Part shown: positions 53 through 9,163 of the stretch, one piece after another
Layout of the letters: the number at the start of each line of letters is the position of its first letter
Numbering within the stretch: position 1 is the stretch's first letter
Origin: Trichothermofontia sichuanensis B231
GTDB lineage: Bacteria; Cyanobacteriota; Cyanobacteriia; B231
Direction: 5' to 3'
Assembly (NCBI RefSeq): GCF_026240635.1
Contig: NZ_CP110848.1
Location: 1,242,501-1,306,500 of the forward strand
Length of the DNA stretch: 64,000 nt
Program-made: the position numbers and the translations under genes
Notes under the pieces: generated by a model
Seen by the model: only the letters and a program-made list of their open reading frames with translations
What the model was told of the DNA's origin: nothing
Database searches by the model: none

Positions 53-826
53 TTACTCACTCGCCTCGATATCCAACAAGACCTGCACCCACTCCGGTGG
101 GGCGGGGATCGAACTGCCCAAGCGCTCCAGCAACAACCAGGCGGCCAAGTGAACGACAAATAGGTAAATCACGCTATTGATCACCACCACCGCCACCGCA
201 ATCACCTGGATCAGCCAAAGGTCCGGTTGGGTTAATATCCCCAGCTTAGTAAAGATCCACTCCGCCAGGTTAGCAATTTGTACCATTGAGTAGGCCCACA
301 GGTCATCCCCCAGCAGCAGCGACACCAGCCAGATGCGAAAGAAAAAGCCCACGGTATTGAGCAGCGTACCCAGGGCGATTGCCACCCACCAGTTCACCGC
401 ATTCCGCCACAGCCACCCCAACAAAACCCCCAGCAACCCAAAAGGCACGATAAACAGAATACTGCGCGTCGGTCCCATCAACACCGACAAGAGTAACCCC
501 GATACCAGGGTAGCCATCCACGTCGCCCGATGCCCCCAGCGCAGGTAAACCAGCGTGATCGGCAGGGGAAAAAAGATCCGTAACAGCGGACCGATCGGAA
601 AATAATAGTTAACCAGCCAAATCAAGCTGGCCGTACTGGCCAAAAATGCCGTTTCCACCAGACTCAGGGGGGCGGGTGCTCTCAGGTGAGGCTCAGCTAA
701 GGAGGAGGGCACAGGTCCTGTGGCGGCTTCCGCAGGCGAGGGAGCCGCGTTGGGGATTTCCTCATCAGACACGCGATCGCTGGACGACGCCAAGGGCAGA
801 TCACGGCTGTTAGGCGACGAAGACAT
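53..826 (-). CDS. DUF2232 family integral membrane protein
   Basis: The 257-residue product has a hydrophilic Ser/Pro/Ala-rich N-terminus of about 50 residues. After it come several hydrophobic helices from about residue 55 to 240, with Trp- and Leu-rich segments typical of polytopic inner-membrane proteins. The pattern fits the DUF2232 family that is common in cyanobacteria; its function is not known. The gene starts 27 bp downstream of the stop of the Crp-type regulator on the same strand, so the two are probably one transcript. The start ATG gives a product of normal length. I see no frameshift or missing part. Confidence 0.75.
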   Translation of the reverse strand: MSSSPNSRDLPLASSSDRVSDEEIPNAAPSPAEAATGPVPSSLAEPHLRAPAPLSLVETAFLASTASLIWLVNYYFPIGPLLRIFFPLPITLVYLRWGHRATWMATLVSGLLLSVLMGPTRSILFIVPFGLLGVLLGWLWRNAVNWWVAIALGTLLNTVGFFFRIWLVSLLLGDDLWAYSMVQIANLAEWIFTKLGILTQPDLWLIQVIAVAVVVINSVIYLFVVHLAAWLLLERLGSSIPAPPEWVQVLLDIEASE

Positions 827-853
827 AGGGGCAGATCAGGCACATAGCAGTGC

Positions 854-1561
854 TTAGGAGAGCAACAGGCGATCGAGGGCATCGGTATCGGGAATACATA
901 GGACATCCCGTTCGCGTTGAATTAGCCCTTTTTTTTCTAGCTTACTCAAGACCCGCGTTACCGTTTCCCGCGCCAGCCCACTTAAACTACTCAGCTCCCG
1001 GTGGGGTAAGTTGGGAATCATGACCCCCTTCTCACTGGTTTGCCCCTGGCCATCCGCCAGAAATAGCAGAATATCCGCTACCCGCGAGGTACTGTCCGAC
1101 TCGCGTAATCGCAGCCGACGATTGACCTGCCGTAGCCGACGAGCCATAAGTTGAGCCAGACGAATTGCAGCTTGGGGTTCAGTTTGCAGCATTTGCACGA
1201 AATCCTGGGCAGGAACATTAGCAATCACTGTGGGGGCCAAGGTAATCACGTCCGTCGATCGCGGCACCGAATCCAGGGGAGCCATCTCGCCAAAAATTTC
1301 CCCCTTACCCAAAATATTCAGGGTGACTTCCTTGCCTTCCAGGTTATAGGTCCGAATTTTGACCCACCCATCCAGGATGAAATAGACCGAACTGCCCCAG
1401 TCATTTTCTAATAACAAAATCTGATTGGCGGGATGGCTACGCACAACCACATGAGCCGTGGCCTTCTCGACAATCTCAGCAGGGAGTCCCTGGAAAAAGG
1501 TCGAATGACGGAGCTGTTCTTCATTGGCGCGATGACTGCGAGAGACGTGCCGATCTTCCAT
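854..1561 (-). CDS. Crp/Fnr family transcriptional regulator
   Basis: The 235-residue protein has a cyclic-nucleotide-binding-type beta-roll (about residues 18-140, with the GEIFGEMAPLDSVPRS phosphate-binding-cassette-like segment). A long dimerisation helix and a C-terminal winged helix follow (about 175-225; the recognition helix reads SGLARETVTRVLSKLEKKG). The RS in the cassette matches effector-binding family members, so cAMP or a related ligand is possible but not proven. Its DNA targets cannot be read from the sequence. It is the first gene of a probable two-gene unit with the DUF2232 protein. It is divergent from the long coiled-coil gene across a 1-kb spacer. Confidence 0.88.
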   Translation of the reverse strand: MEDRHVSRSHRANEEQLRHSTFFQGLPAEIVEKATAHVVVRSHPANQILLLENDWGSSVYFILDGWVKIRTYNLEGKEVTLNILGKGEIFGEMAPLDSVPRSTDVITLAPTVIANVPAQDFVQMLQTEPQAAIRLAQLMARRLRQVNRRLRLRESDSTSRVADILLFLADGQGQTSEKGVMIPNLPHRELSSLSGLARETVTRVLSKLEKKGLIQRERDVLCIPDTDALDRLLLS

Positions 1562-2628: not shown

Positions 2629-5565
2629 GTGACTCCTCAGCAGGCCCAAGCCCAGGCACTGATCCATGAAATTGACAGTGTCCTTCACAAAGCTAGCCCT
2701 CGTTTACCCTGGGTCATGTCCAACGAAGACGCCCAGCAGCGTCAGCTATTGCACCAACTGCGGTCTTATCTGGTAACCTCCCTCCAAGCGTCGTCACCGT
2801 CACTGCCAGAAGGCTCCTCCGCTGGTGTTTCCGGTGGTGAATCCCTCCCCGATCGGTCGCCAGCGGTCAGTATGAGCCAACTGGACGCGATGCAACAAAC
2901 CCTGCACGCCATGATGCAGGAGATGAACCACCTGCGGCGTACGGTCTTGCAACCGCTACAGGCGGATGTGGCAGAGTTACAGCAACAACGGGAGGCCCTG
3001 CGTCAGGAGGTACAACAACTGGAAAGTCAACGGCAAGCCGCGATCGCCGCGGCAGCCCCAACTGCTTCTGATACCCTTAGCCAGCAAGTCCTCCAGGAGG
3101 TATTGCACCTCCTGATGCAACGTCTTCAGGAAAGTTTAAGTCAACAGATCAGCCAGCAGATTCACCAAGCATTCCAACGGCTGCAAGCGACCCTACAACC
3201 TGCCCATGACCTATCCCCTGCCAATGCCACGACCGGTCTATTACCGGGAATGACGGCGGAACAGGTGAAAAACCTGGAAGCCCTCCAGGCACGCGCGGAT
3301 CAGGTGTTAACGACGATCGATGCCACGCTGCGGGTTGTATTTGAGTCGATGCAGCGTAATCTCGAAAGTTACCAGGATTCCCTCACCCGTGGTCTAGAAC
3401 GAATGCATGGGCTAGGACAACAGAGTGAGGCGCAATTTGCTGCCCTTCTTAACCACTTGGCCCAACGGCTAGGGCAAGAAGCCTCTGCCTATCTGAATGC
3501 ATCTCTACAAACCCAAGGGTTGATTGCACCGGAAGCCCCTGTTGCACGGGAAACTGTGCGCCCCGGCAGTGCTGCTCCCGCCGCTTTACCCACGGACGCG
3601 ATCGCCGAAGAGGCCTTGCCGTTTGCAGGTTCAGAGATCGGGAGAGGGGGAGCCGAGGTTTCCGTGTTCTCCCCCTCATCCCCTTCCCCTAGCCGGACCA
3701 GTCCATCGGCCCATCGCTCTGAAACGCTGCAACTGGACGATCTGGATCTGTCCGACTTTAATTTGGATGCTCTGGATACCAGTTTGATCGATGCCGAAGG
3801 GGCTGATCTGGAGGCACTCCCGTTAGCAGAAGGCGGCCCAGAAGCCGGGACTTTAGACCTAGGGAGCGACGATCGGGACATCGACGATTCGCCTACAGAG
3901 ATGCTGCGTGAACGCGGGGCCGAGCCGACGAATACACTGCCAACGGCTGTCATGGCCGAAGCGGAGACACTGGACTTCCTCAACCAATTGGCAGAGACCT
4001 TGGATGCTCCCGCCCTTGTCCAAGCGGCTGAATCCCAATCCTCCCCAGCGACCCCCACAAGCTGGACGGATAGCAGTACCACTGCTGAATTACGGGAACT
4101 GTACCAAAGTCTGTTTGGCTCCGATGAATTTGCCGGTGCTGCCCCCGCCACTCCCCCAGCAGCCACTCCCGATAGCCCGCCAACAAGTGTCCCCACGCTG
4201 GACAATCTCTTCGGGGAATTGGATGCCACGATTCATCCCGATAGCGCCTATCTCGATTCTCCGGGGGAAACGCTACGCGAACAGTTAGATACCGAGCCGT
4301 CTGGGTCTGATACGCTGCTGTTTGAGGGTGAGACCTCCGCCTCGCCGGGTCTAGAACCGGCGGCTGACCTCAGTGCTGATTGGACTGATCTGTCCCTGGG
4401 GATAGAGGATGTTGCCCCGTTGGGGACGCTGCCCGAACCCACAGCATCTTCCCAGGAGACGCGTCCCAGTTCTCTAGAAGACTTTTTCTTCCCGGAAGCG
4501 GCTCCTGCGGGTTCTTCGCTGCTTTCTGCCGACGCTGCCCCATCTGTGGAGGCGGAACTGTCCCTAGCCGGAAGCCCTGACGTTGAGGCTGAGTCGATCC
4601 CCCGCGGGGAACGCGACGCAAACGCATGGCTGGAGGAGGCTGCTTTGGAGCAGTTAAGTGAGCCAGCAACGGTAGAGCCAGCCCCCCGTACGGCTGCTCC
4701 TGATCTCCCTGATTTAGATACCGATCCCTTTAATTTAAGTGCTTTGGCCGCAGATTTTGCGGCTGAGCAAGAGACCGCCGCTACCGGGCCTGATCTGGCG
4801 GCTCTGCTGGCTGACATCGGTGCTACGGGAGCTATGCCTGGGGATGTCGCCGCGATCGAGACGGGCAGTGTCAGTGCCAGCTTAGAAGATAACTTTGATA
4901 CGGCTGCCCCTGATGAAGATCTCCTAGCGCCAGAAGACCTCCAATCTCCTCCTGGTCCAGAGCTGCTCCAGATCGATGACCAGACGTTACAACAATTGAG
5001 TGAAGATCTCTTTAGCCTGGAGTCCAGTGAGTTAGCCACGCCTGGGGAACTACCCTCCTTCCCGCCATTGGAAGGCGATCATAGCGTGTCTCCAACGGAA
5101 ACTCGACCCTCACTTGGAGACGACTTTGGTCAACCAGCTGCCGCCTTGGACCTAGCGCCCCAGACCACGGCGTTCAGTGTTGAGGACTTTGCTGCTGATC
5201 TGTTGGGTGGCCTTGGGGGGGATGACCGGGCGATCGCCGCCGCCCATCCCTCCCTTTCAGCCCCAGAGACCCGGGCGAGTGAGCAAGATCTCGACCCCTC
5301 CCTAGCGGCACTGGAGGATCTCTTTACCGATTCCCTCTCCCCTGATCTTCCCCCTGAACCACCCCCTCCTGAGCCAGTGGCCTCTCCCACGCCCAAGGGT
5401 TTTGTCGATGAAGACGCTGCACGAACGGATGGTGGCTTGTTAGATGATTTGTTTGCTGATTTTGGTGAGCTAGAGGTGGCCAGCCAGACAGCGGAGAACA
5501 ACCTAGCCAGTTTCCAGGCAGAATTTCCCGTGTGGGATGAAGACTCAGCAAAAAAAAAGTTCTGA
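2629..5565 (+). CDS. Coiled-coil/acidic protein, N-terminal half of a frameshift fusion
   Basis: I chose GTG 2629 (start VTPQQAQAQ) because an AGAGG lies 7 nt upstream and the sequence turns protein-like there. Residues about 82-290 are Gln/Leu-rich coiled coil. The rest (about 300-975) is low-complexity and very acidic, rich in Asp, Glu, Ser, Pro and Ala, with recurring short LDDLF/LEDLF-like motifs. The coiled coil is clearly homologous to the N-terminus of the EamA transporter at 13987-15837: IDATL..VFESMQRNLESYQ against LDATL..TFQSLEQDLSSYQ. The frame stops at TGA 5563-5565, directly after an A9 run. The -1 frame stays open into the next gene, so this is probably the short product of a frameshifting gene. 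Function unknown; a scaffold role is a guess. Confidence 0.75.
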   Translation: MTPQQAQAQALIHEIDSVLHKASPRLPWVMSNEDAQQRQLLHQLRSYLVTSLQASSPSLPEGSSAGVSGGESLPDRSPAVSMSQLDAMQQTLHAMMQEMNHLRRTVLQPLQADVAELQQQREALRQEVQQLESQRQAAIAAAAPTASDTLSQQVLQEVLHLLMQRLQESLSQQISQQIHQAFQRLQATLQPAHDLSPANATTGLLPGMTAEQVKNLEALQARADQVLTTIDATLRVVFESMQRNLESYQDSLTRGLERMHGLGQQSEAQFAALLNHLAQRLGQEASAYLNASLQTQGLIAPEAPVARETVRPGSAAPAALPTDAIAEEALPFAGSEIGRGGAEVSVFSPSSPSPSRTSPSAHRSETLQLDDLDLSDFNLDALDTSLIDAEGADLEALPLAEGGPEAGTLDLGSDDRDIDDSPTEMLRERGAEPTNTLPTAVMAEAETLDFLNQLAETLDAPALVQAAESQSSPATPTSWTDSSTTAELRELYQSLFGSDEFAGAAPATPPAATPDSPPTSVPTLDNLFGELDATIHPDSAYLDSPGETLREQLDTEPSGSDTLLFEGETSASPGLEPAADLSADWTDLSLGIEDVAPLGTLPEPTASSQETRPSSLEDFFFPEAAPAGSSLLSADAAPSVEAELSLAGSPDVEAESIPRGERDANAWLEEAALEQLSEPATVEPAPRTAAPDLPDLDTDPFNLSALAADFAAEQETAATGPDLAALLADIGATGAMPGDVAAIETGSVSASLEDNFDTAAPDEDLLAPEDLQSPPGPELLQIDDQTLQQLSEDLFSLESSELATPGELPSFPPLEGDHSVSPTETRPSLGDDFGQPAAALDLAPQTTAFSVEDFAADLLGGLGGDDRAIAAAHPSLSAPETRASEQDLDPSLAALEDLFTDSLSPDLPPEPPPPEPVASPTPKGFVDEDAARTDGGLLDDLFADFGELEVASQTAENNLASFQAEFPVWDEDSAKKKF
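5550..5565 (+). other. dnaX-type -1 slippery site with adjacent stop
   Basis: In the zero frame the sequence reads GCA AAA AAA AAG TTC TGA. It contains the heptamer A AAA AAG (5553-5559) in the phase required for tandem -1 slippage. The stop lies one codon further on. After a -1 shift the frame reads GTT CTG ACC and is open through to 7775. Transcriptional slippage on A9, or one base lost from a true A10 during sequencing, would give the same fusion. Confidence 0.65.
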
Positions 5566-5639
5566 CCCCAACGGCTGAGTTTCTGCGGGAAGCCAACCCA
5601 GCCTCTGTCCCAGAGATAGCGCCTGAGATAGCGCCTGAG

Positions 5640-7775
5640 ATGACGTCAGCAGTCATCCCTGAAACCATCCCTGCTTCTGCCGGTGACCCTGCGGCTGCTT
5701 ACCCTTCGCCAACGCTGCCAGTGACCCCGACCGCTTCCCCCGCCGGTGAAGAACTCTTCAGCCTGTCCGCGTTCGGGCAGCCTTCCCAACAGGGAATTGC
5801 TCCAACCGATTGGTACTTGGGGCTGGATATTGGCACAACCGCCCTCTCCGCTGTGCTCTGTCATCGTCCCACCGGGGCCGTCTATCCCCTCTATTGGTGG
5901 GTGGCGGCTACCGATCCCCCTAGCGCCAATCCGCCTTGGGGCATTCGTGAGTCGTCGTCTGCGGAAAATCGGGTTGGGTCGCCCCAGCCGCCTCGCTTAA
6001 GCTGGCCCCCCATCCCGTGCTTCCGGTTACCCAATCTGGCCTACCTCAGCGCCGAACAACTGACACAGCCCCCCCAGATGCCCACTGCCATTGGCTTACT
6101 GGCCCAAGCAGCTTATCCCGCGCCAGACTACCCCGATCAGCCTTTGTCTGAGTTGCTCCATACCCTAGAACCCCATTGGTCCCCTGGAGGAGGGGGCTTT
6201 TTCCTGCATGACTACCTCCCACTTCTGGATCTCACTTGGCCCTACTATTCCCCCCAATCCCTACGCTGGGAACCCCAACTGCAATGGTCAGAAACTCAAG
6301 TTTTGCCTTTAGGGTGGTGTCAACAGACGCTACAGGCCCTTATTCATAGCTTGTTAGACCCCCCTGGGACGGAAGTGCTGTCGATAGGAAGGTTACGGTG
6401 TGCGGCGGTGGGGTTAGACAGTCAAACCTTCCAAATGGCCCTGCGTCACCTGACGGGCGTTTGTGTGAGTGGTTGTATTGACCACTCGGATGTCTATGCC
6501 TACAACGTGCGGGAAGCGGTTTTAGCAACGGGGTTAGTGGCACAGCCGGAGCAAATTGTGCTGGTTGAAGGCCCGATCGCGGCCCTGTTGACGGAATTAC
6601 AAGGCTTACAACAAACGCGACGGTATGCGGACGATGGCACAACCCCCCTTTCCCAAGCGGGAGCTTGGACTTGGGACGGCTTTACCCTGGTCATTGAAGC
6701 GGGGGCGAGTCATACGGATTTACTCTTGAGTGACCTACCTGACCCTCTCTCAACCCTGACTTATCAAGATTTCTGGCTACGGGGGTTGGACTACGGCGGT
6801 CATGCCCTCGATCAGGATATTTTCTGCCAGTTGCTGTTACCCCAACTGTCGGTACGCCCCCCCGAATGGCAGGGGTTAACGATACCTGTGGTGGGTGAAC
6901 CCGATCGGGAGCGGCGTGCCCGGTTACAACAGCAGCTTGCCCATACCCCTCTGGGCTGGGTTTGGTTGCAATTTGCGCAGCAGATTAAGGGCCAGTTGGT
7001 CCAGGCAACTAGGCCACAGGCGGTTGGGCCGCGTGCCCAAGGCGAGATTGGACCCCAAACCTTTACCCTAGGGGAAACGGTCATCCACCTCAGTCCCCAG
7101 GACCTGGAAATCCAGATCTTTCTGCCCTATTTGCGACGTCTGAATCGCGAGTTAAATACCCTCCTCAGCCAAGCAGGGGTCGTTCCTGCTCAAATCCGGC
7201 AGGTTATCTGTACCGGGGGAACAGGGGCGATCGGGGCCATGACCCGATGGCTGCGGCAAAAGCTACCGAATGCGACGATTCTTCAGGATACCCAGCCCAA
7301 CCTCGCTCAACCCAGTTGTAGTCGCGTGGCCTATGGCCTAGCCCTAGTCTCACTCTACCCCCAGGTCATTGCTACCGATCGCCGCATCTATAGTGATAGC
7401 TTCCTACTGCTGGAATTGCTGCGCACGGTGCCGACTGAACCCATGTCCTTAACCCAAATCCTGGTGGCCTTGGCCCGTCGAGGGATTAATGTCAAGGTGT
7501 GTCGATCGCGCATCCAGCAGTTGCTCGCGGGCCACCTACCCCAGGGGCTGGGGTTCGACGATCGCCACCGCGTCTGGCTGAGTGCCAGTTCCCAGCAACA
7601 CCCGTTTTACACCACGATCGCGACGGCTCCCCTCTTTCAAGCCGTTGGTCCTGACACCTACGTTTTGAACGGGGAGCAGGCCCAGGCTTGGCACGGTTAC
7701 CTCACCCAAGTCCTTGCAGGTAAGCATCAGCGACTGGACGAACCGCTAGTCGTTAGTGGACTGCCTTCGCCGTGA
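5640..7775 (+). CDS. Actin/Hsp70-like ATPase-fold protein, C-terminal half of frameshift fusion
   Basis: The product carries hallmarks of the actin/Hsp70/sugar-kinase fold. Near the N-terminus is a phosphate-1 motif (YLGLDIGTTALSAVL). Mid-protein is a phosphate-2-like segment (VIEAGASHTDLLL), followed by GLDYGGHALDQDI. Late comes an adenosine-type motif (ICTGGTGAIGAM). A further 120 residues look like a small helical domain. ATG 5640 has no obvious ribosome site, and the frame is open upstream to the A9 run. I therefore infer it is translated mainly as a fusion with the upstream coiled-coil protein (about 1715 residues in all). The 3' end overlaps the convergent glycosyltransferase gene by 49 bp. 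The family is not one I can name. Confidence 0.75.
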   Translation: MTSAVIPETIPASAGDPAAAYPSPTLPVTPTASPAGEELFSLSAFGQPSQQGIAPTDWYLGLDIGTTALSAVLCHRPTGAVYPLYWWVAATDPPSANPPWGIRESSSAENRVGSPQPPRLSWPPIPCFRLPNLAYLSAEQLTQPPQMPTAIGLLAQAAYPAPDYPDQPLSELLHTLEPHWSPGGGGFFLHDYLPLLDLTWPYYSPQSLRWEPQLQWSETQVLPLGWCQQTLQALIHSLLDPPGTEVLSIGRLRCAAVGLDSQTFQMALRHLTGVCVSGCIDHSDVYAYNVREAVLATGLVAQPEQIVLVEGPIAALLTELQGLQQTRRYADDGTTPLSQAGAWTWDGFTLVIEAGASHTDLLLSDLPDPLSTLTYQDFWLRGLDYGGHALDQDIFCQLLLPQLSVRPPEWQGLTIPVVGEPDRERRARLQQQLAHTPLGWVWLQFAQQIKGQLVQATRPQAVGPRAQGEIGPQTFTLGETVIHLSPQDLEIQIFLPYLRRLNRELNTLLSQAGVVPAQIRQVICTGGTGAIGAMTRWLRQKLPNATILQDTQPNLAQPSCSRVAYGLALVSLYPQVIATDRRIYSDSFLLLELLRTVPTEPMSLTQILVALARRGINVKVCRSRIQQLLAGHLPQGLGFDDRHRVWLSASSQQHPFYTTIATAPLFQAVGPDTYVLNGEQAQAWHGYLTQVLAGKHQRLDEPLVVSGLPSP

Positions 7776-9163
7776 TGGATGGTCTTAACCCACTTCAGTC
7801 GTTTCGGTCGCACCGAAATGCGCATGGCCATCGTGGCGATCACCAGCATCCAATGCATCAGGTAGACATTGGCCTGTAACGTTTGCCAGCCTTGAACCCA
7901 GAGGGGTCGGTGTTGCGTGCGGCGTAGCCCCATCATCATACTGAGCATCGAAAAGCCGATCGCGAGGGCTACCAAGGGACTCAGCAGCGGCGGACAGTTC
8001 CGCAGGTAGGCCATCAAAAGGTCGGGCACGGCTGCCGTTGGCAGCAGGTACTGCATAACCCAGAACATCGCCAAATCGTAGGTTTTGCGCGGGCCAAGTC
8101 GATTCTGAATGAGCGGTTTCCAATAGTCGAGGTAACGCTGGTAACCCCCCTCGGCCCAGCGATTGCGTTGATGCCATAGCCCGATCGCCGTGGTCACCCC
8201 TTCTTCCAGGACCGCCACATCATTCAGGAACTCAATATCCCAACCTTGTATATGGAGGTGTAGGGTCAAATCGAGATCATCCGTAATCGTCGCTTCATTA
8301 AAACCACCGCAGGACTCCAATGCCTCCCGGCGAATGAATTGGCCATTACCCCGCAGTTCCCCAATCCCCCCAATCGCAATTCGCTGTTGTTGCACGCAGC
8401 TATCCAGGGCCATTTCCGCTGCTTGACACCGAGTCCAGAAGTTATGCTGGGCATTGGCGATCGCCTTACGGACCTGTACAGCCCCGATCCGCTCCTGGGT
8501 AAACAAAGGCAACACCCGTCGCAGGAGATCCGCCGGGACCTGGGCATCCGCATCAAACACGGCTAAAATCTCACCCGCTGCTTGGGGCCATACCTGATTG
8601 AGGGCACCCGACTTGCCACCGCCCGCACCCGGTCCCCGGCGAACAATGCGCAAATGGCTATACTGTTGGGCCAACTGTTTCAAGATAACGGGGGTTTGAT
8701 CATCGCTATTATCATCAATAATCCACAGCTCATAGCGATCACGAGGATAGTCCAGTTGGCAGAGAGATTCCACCAGTCGGGCAATCACAGCCTCCTCATT
8801 CTTGGCCGCCACGAGCAACGAGACGTAGGGACAATTCTCAGACCCATCAATGTCCAGGGGCAAAGGGGCCACATGGGGCCGCAGCCGCAACACGCGCAAG
8901 GCATGAACCCCCATTAGGGTCGTTAGTCCCAACACCAACCACAGCCCCCACGAGACGGAATGGAGGGCGATCGTACTGCCCCAAACCACTGTCAAGAGCA
9001 CGGCGGCTTTCTGGCGACGTCGATCCGAGCGTGGGCCAGCCGTTGCCCTTGGCTCCGGCATAGGCGTAACGCCGCTTGTGGCTATCGACTCCCCCAACTT
9101 GTCAGCTACCGTTGGGTCAATCACACTGTAGGAATGACTTTCGGACCAGGATGGCTCCGGCAT
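7727..9163 (-). CDS. mgdA: Beta-monoglucosyldiacylglycerol synthase, GT2 membrane glycosyltransferase
   Basis: The 478-residue protein has the domain order of cyanobacterial MgdA (Sll1377 type). A first hydrophobic segment is at about 53-93. The GT-A domain carries DDNSDD (150-155), DAD (204-206), TDDLD (294-298) and QRNRW (332-336). C-terminal membrane helices follow. The family transfers glucose from UDP-glucose to diacylglycerol, making the precursor that is epimerised to the thylakoid lipid MGDG. The N-terminal segment KAAVLLTVVWGSTIALH closely matches what I recall for MgdA. Its 3' end overlaps the convergent ATPase-fold gene. Confidence 0.85.
   Translation of the reverse strand: MPEPSWSESHSYSVIDPTVADKLGESIATSGVTPMPEPRATAGPRSDRRRQKAAVLLTVVWGSTIALHSVSWGLWLVLGLTTLMGVHALRVLRLRPHVAPLPLDIDGSENCPYVSLLVAAKNEEAVIARLVESLCQLDYPRDRYELWIIDDNSDDQTPVILKQLAQQYSHLRIVRRGPGAGGGKSGALNQVWPQAAGEILAVFDADAQVPADLLRRVLPLFTQERIGAVQVRKAIANAQHNFWTRCQAAEMALDSCVQQQRIAIGGIGELRGNGQFIRREALESCGGFNEATITDDLDLTLHLHIQGWDIEFLNDVAVLEEGVTTAIGLWHQRNRWAEGGYQRYLDYWKPLIQNRLGPRKTYDLAMFWVMQYLLPTAAVPDLLMAYLRNCPPLLSPLVALAIGFSMLSMMMGLRRTQHRPLWVQGWQTLQANVYLMHWMLVIATMAMRISVRPKRLKWVKTIHHGEGSPLTTSGSSSR

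Follow-up and report, generated by a model that had tools for sequence, protein, structure and literature searches.

A conserved poly-A run between a coiled-coil scaffold and an Hsp70-type domain: a probable transcriptional slip site in a cyanobacterial gene family

Transposons, dnaX, endosymbionts and a small number of secretion genes account for most of the confirmed cases of productive poly-A slippage in bacteria. In tssM1 of Citrobacter rodentium, slippage on an A11 run has been shown by mRNA masses, and the short and full-length forms are both required (PMC4256274), while in Thermus thermophilus dnaX an A9 run within the coding sequence, with stops nearby in the other frames, leads to a short and a long product (PMC5009743). 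In IS630-type transposases, slippage on an A-run joins two frames, with both directions of shift represented among relatives (PMC3711429, PMC1088944), and the IS elements of Nostoc PCC 7120 have runs of 8-10 A's (PMC1088944). Bacterial polymerase slips once an A-run reaches a length of about nine (PMC5009743, PMC1088944), and frameshifting in E. coli reporters amounts to 40% at A9 and 63% at A11; the presence of both shift directions among orthologues has been read as transcriptional realignment and that of a single direction as ribosomal frameshifting (PMC3711429).

The gene described here lies in a window of 64,000 nucleotides (the whole stretch of DNA that was analysed) from a cyanobacterial genome of 4.44 Mb in a single contig. 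It resembles tssM1 in being chromosomal, with an upstream frame that stops just past the run, but whereas tssM1 is one gene of a few enterobacteria, the family here extends across many families of cyanobacteria and keeps the run while the frame changes. Like Thermus dnaX, it has an A9 within coding sequence and nearby stops in other frames, although the genomic frame of dnaX is the full-length one, which is the case in only 28 of the 96 run-bearing orthologues here. It shares with the IS630-type transposases the A-run at the joint of two frames and the occurrence of both directions among relatives; unlike those mobile elements, it is a single-copy cellular gene with a conserved neighbourhood. 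The in-phase A AAA AAG of the window recalls the -1 ribosomal frameshift of E. coli dnaX, from which the family differs in lacking stimulators, in having a run that is never shorter than nine and in a direction that is not conserved. The mechanism is a known one. Within the literature searched, some surveys (Sharma et al. 2011, GeneTack supplement) lying outside it, this family and the breadth of its conservation appear to be new.

Layout of the two frames and conservation of the run

The upstream frame is a scaffold ORF of 978 aa (2629..5565, + strand) with a GTG start, which is backed by the orthologue N-terminus VTSQKDQIQ..., where V/GTG-type starts are found as well. It comprises a conserved coiled-coil region of ~300 aa (2629..3558; delimited by blastp to orthologues and AlphaFold) and a long acidic low-complexity part that ends KKKF-stop. 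The letters of the junction are GAC TCA GCA AAA AAA AAG TTC TGA. The A9 run, the proposed transcriptional slip site, occupies 5550-5558, and the zero-frame TGA follows 4 nt 3' of it (5563-5565); the frame of this TGA is +1 relative to the downstream domain and is usually closed in orthologues. The -1 frame, also on the + strand, holds the nucleotide-binding fold and overlaps the scaffold frame by 25 nt (5541..5565), continuing through a linker (5559..5810) without an ATG bearing a Shine-Dalgarno sequence, the predicted Hsp70-type nucleotide-binding domain (5811..7355; AlphaFold, VIA-align) and a mostly helical C-terminal part up to the stop codon (7356..7775). Much of this had been described in the earlier note and was borne out, including the stop of the scaffold frame just past GCA AAA AAA AAG, the A AAA AAG heptamer in slip phase, a first ATG at 5640 without a ribosome site (no Shine-Dalgarno-like sequence is present there) and a trans-frame product of ~1,715 aa; the -1 frame, which the note had as open from 5550 to 7775, is free of stops from 5541 already. 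Since sites of A>=9 number only about a dozen in the whole genome, counting both strands, an A-run would fall within the 25-nt overlap by chance in ~3 of 100,000 cases. Two further sense-strand A9 runs of this genome lie in IS630-like transposase ORFs (L227:1977-2360 and L231:1590-2079), and in L227 the first frame, a short ORF, reaches its stop two codons past the A9, a layout known from slippage transposases. Another A9, in frame and on the - strand of locus L229, falls close to the C-terminal end of an ORF for a predicted membrane protein of 247 aa.

The downstream domain is present in 205 of 390 genomes of the class (genome search), and in many lineages one uninterrupted frame, of 1,189 to 2,611 residues, spans both this domain and the N-terminal region known from the window. 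An N-terminus VTSQKDQIQ.LI..ID is common to fused and two-frame orthologues, and residues 30-330 of the window protein have 35-46% identity to orthologues (blastp). The single-frame fusions elsewhere, together with the common N-terminus, indicate that the window frames are the halves of one ancestral protein. That the coiled-coil protein and the nucleotide-binding part are joined, as had been claimed, is therefore supported by relatives that fuse both without interruption, and the comparisons indicate that both frames of the window belong to one product, crossed at the A-run. The dN/dS of the domain, 0.06-0.31 in pairs drawn from -1 and +1 clades, argues that the domain is made and used despite its out-of-frame position in the genome, and by this measure it is under purifying selection while the genomic frame changes.

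Orthologue loci were drawn from the genomes of the class and from named GTDB contigs and oriented, yielding 165 distinct loci and then 33 more that were usable (~200), with the junction defined as the longest A-run in the 1,700 nt 5' of the domain. Where two frames cross at the run, it is A9, A10 or A11 in 68/68 orthologues, never A6-A8 and never longer than A11, and the linker of another 28 orthologues, which have a single frame, likewise contains A9-A11. Within 768 kb of these genes, 86 runs of A>=9 are at the junction and one is elsewhere, and no run of T>=9 was found. The first set contained 83 loci with a domain frame crossing an A9-A11 run (45 in -1, 12 in +1 and 26 in frame 0), to which the second set added 10, 1 and 2, respectively, for totals of 55, 13 and 28 (n = 96). 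A comparison of orthologues, suggested in the earlier note as a check, thus finds the run kept at the junction in both the two-frame and the single-frame members, and an accident of a sole genome amongst uniformly single-frame, run-free relatives does not describe a two-frame layout that recurs with A9-A11. A broader claim, that every two-frame orthologue has the run, fails in a further 34 loci, among which 11 two-frame loci have A9-A10 but others are run-free split genes whose stop-to-stop frames overlap by chance; the claim is narrowed here to frames crossing at the run.

About half of the sampled gene-bearing genomes have no run, with fusions or split genes instead, and slippage is therefore not essential to the protein. 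Run-free fusions occur in large clades (L035, L037, L055, Leptolyngbya PCC 7375, Nodosilinea and many Fischerella). The Nostocales are in frame 0; some of their species have A10, and others have A7-A8 or no run, as decay of an unneeded run would predict. L042 has an A9, and in a genus sister to it GAAGGAATGA stands in place of the run (L049:10466-10491, and L050), accompanied by an ATGA overlap and a Shine-Dalgarno-like sequence. Three loci (L061, L063 and L064) have an ATGA overlap a few nt past an A9, and slippage and translational coupling may coexist there. One locus has, besides its A10, a second frame break within the nucleotide-binding domain (L084:7624-8020), reflecting assembly error or decay.

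Frame changes, slippage and competing explanations

The genomic frame clusters by clade, and some close sister pairs differ in it. A FastTree tree of the domain requires at least 18 frame changes among the 83 run-bearers, with some frame placements unsure on long branches, compared with at least 24 (mean 32) when frame labels are shuffled. Close sisters of differing frame include L068 (+1) and L069 (-1), L108 (-1, A10) and L109 (+1, A11), and L093 (0) and L098 (+1), while seven of seven species of one genus and three of three of another are -1 and 12/12 run-bearing Nostocales are frame 0. In the frame that is +1 to the domain, a stop falls no more than 13 nt past the run in 91% (-1 class), 92% (+1 class) and 54% (frame-0 class) of loci, against ~24% at control positions, and the later of the two stops is reached by 30 nt past the run in 50-58%, compared with 10-14% under the null. 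With stops near the run in all classes, conservation extends to the run's downstream side but not to the zero frame.

The conserved run, the unconserved direction and the minimum of nine A's favour transcriptional slippage over a dnaX-type ribosomal -1 shift, and we consider it likely that slippage by RNA polymerase on the poly-A run joins the two halves and gives a short and a long protein. A single gene would encode the coiled-coil/acidic scaffold and then the Hsp70-like nucleotide-binding domain, with the run of 9-11 A's just 5' of the second domain held by selection. Slipping on this run would produce mRNAs of mixed A count, of which those placing the domain in frame would give full-length scaffold plus domain by ordinary translation, while other counts would give the scaffold alone by way of the stops close behind the run; because all A counts would be sampled, the genomic frame would be free to vary. 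We infer the slipping itself, the product ratio and the usefulness of both products from the pattern of run and frame. The IS630-like A9 at L227, in the window's own genome, would count by analogy for slippage, and the lack of a run in about half of the gene-bearing genomes would count against it.

It is unlikely that the polymerase copies the run faithfully and that the frames are instead joined by ribosomal frameshifting, either a dnaX-like -1 shift or poly-A sliding. Most -1 members do have a heptamer in phase, either A AAA AAG or A AAA AAA, which on its face speaks for the ribosome and against the polymerase. Chloroplast machinery descends from cyanobacteria. Frame correction at an A run in chloroplast atpB has been ascribed to ribosomes, with no mRNA slippage above a detection limit of 5-15% (PMC8254509), and this would likewise weigh, by analogy, against polymerase slippage here. 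The -1 mechanism of the dnaX type, which the earlier note had favoured, is nevertheless a poor match to a family in which orthologues need -1, +1 or no shift and in which frame-0 members bearing the run exist. Some 12-13 orthologues need +1, and we know of no established bacterial ribosomal site for a +1 shift on an A-run. Six A's and a G suffice for a ribosomal A AAA AAG site, yet the run is never shorter than nine. Stimulators are not enriched either: a Shine-Dalgarno-like sequence is found 5' of the run in only 12/83 run-bearers (5/45 of the -1 class), no conserved structure follows the run, where folding (z ~0) is the same as in control stretches, and the hairpin that had been drawn downstream in the window (5573-5594) does not exceed shuffled sequence in stability (z ~-0.5 to +0.4).

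Phase variation, in which the length of the run would change in DNA replication and switch the domain on or off between cells or strains, is very unlikely. Runs of A's this long mutate readily and the frames of orthologues differ, but the frame is stable within clades rather than random among close relatives, the 18 changes on the tree are far below the shuffled minimum and mean, and purifying selection acts on the domain in clades where it would be permanently off.

Separate genes, with the domain translated from its own start or by coupling and the A-run incidental, would be a highly improbable account of the run-bearing loci. Genuine split-gene orthologues exist (L087, L104, L126, L248-L253, L255, L258-L261 and others), with an ATG/GTG 4-23 codons before the domain; L049 and L050, of one genus, have GAAGGA ahead of their ATGA overlap, and in L061, L063 and L064 an ATGA overlap and an A9 are both present. 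In the run class, however, the domain frame opens at or 5' of the run and never 3' of it, an ATG lies between run and domain in only 26/68 two-frame run loci and an ATG/GTG start preceded by a Shine-Dalgarno-like sequence in 9/68, and the run itself would be left without explanation. No credible internal promoter or terminator was found between the halves.

Little credence can be given to a sequencing or assembly error, by which a true A10 in the window genome would make the gene one plain frame: homopolymers are error-prone and one extra A would give a single frame, but dozens of independent assemblies show this layout, each of the three frames is represented among single-contig genomes (-1 in the window, L046, L076, L099 and L108; +1 in L041 and L098; 0 in L054), so that error is not a general explanation, and a true A10 would only shift the window genome to the run-bearing frame-0 class, which exists.

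Transcriptional slippage remains the reading we prefer, and it may extend further: at a little less than an even chance, the run is a frame-blind slip device in an ordinary cellular gene, with stabilising selection holding it at A9-A11 (mode A10) and thereby setting the ratio of scaffold alone to scaffold plus domain. The frame would drift through all three states, each supplied by slippage, and loss of the device would lead to a plain fusion, to ATGA coupling or to gene splitting.

Predicted products and gene neighbourhood

The downstream domain, predicted by AlphaFold at a pLDDT of 84.9, aligns with the nucleotide-binding domains of DnaK/Hsp70 at Z 21-24 over 330-368 residues (VIA-align), with Z 23.6 over 358 residues at 3.3 A for a DnaK model; Foldseek places it with the Hsp70 nucleotide-binding fold at E 2e-10. 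Pfam HSP70 did not match the window domain and matched weakly in 5/41 relatives (best E 3e-4), and Pfam PilM_2 matched weakly in 17/41 relatives (best E 1.7e-5), the window not among them. Three residues hardly vary, Asp6 and Gly8 in the first phosphate motif and Gly469 in the adenosine motif. The catalytic-Asp position of the phosphate-2 motif (DxGGGT), equated by motif rather than by structural alignment, is Asn/Ser in 130/164 and Asp in 10. On the model, the domain has an Hsp70-type nucleotide-binding fold; judging from its motifs it probably binds nucleotide, and hydrolysis is uncertain. Of the 'actin-like ATPase' named in the earlier note, the actin/Hsp70-like fold stands, as Hsp70-type and not plainly actin-like, while ATPase activity is doubtful with the Asp mostly replaced by Asn/Ser. 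The domain shares its predicted nucleotide-binding fold with Hsp70/DnaK and may share it with PilM; it differs from them in its C-terminal position after a scaffold, in having no substrate-binding domain recognised by sequence and in the Asn/Ser of most members at the phosphate-2 Asp.

The scaffold N-terminus is predicted to be all-helical with long helices (AlphaFold; pLDDT 74.9, pTM 0.31). Searches of Pfam, NCBIfam and PADLOC gave a convincing family for neither half; weak coiled-coil matches to XopZ, ZorA, SMC and ZapB were taken as low-complexity, and CyDiv (All2320) was rejected as a name for the gene, All2320 being a 197-aa membrane protein. For the cellular role, we infer a nucleotide-dependent scaffold or assembly factor.

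Divergent to the gene, on the - strand of the window (53-1561), are a DUF2232 membrane protein and a Crp/Fnr-family regulator (854..1561; Pfam cNMP_binding, HTH_Crp_2). A homologous Crp-family regulator neighbours the gene in 95 loci, with the DUF2232 protein beyond it in 75, and a third recurrent neighbour (59 loci) is one that we take to resemble a CobT-type protein. The regulator is probably not part of the slip device. A Family 2 glycosyltransferase on the - strand (7727-9163) is convergent with the gene, and most relatives do not share the gene order 3' of the domain.

If the slippage reading is true, cyanobacteria would possess a chromosomal gene family, extending across many of their families, with a conserved run and an unconserved frame. 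Such genes are split or truncated by present annotation. The many frame switches, losses of the run and splits of the gene that occur naturally would offer direct tests of the effects of run length and of product ratio, and the same variants may serve to test whether polymerase or ribosome is the point of slipping in cyanobacteria.
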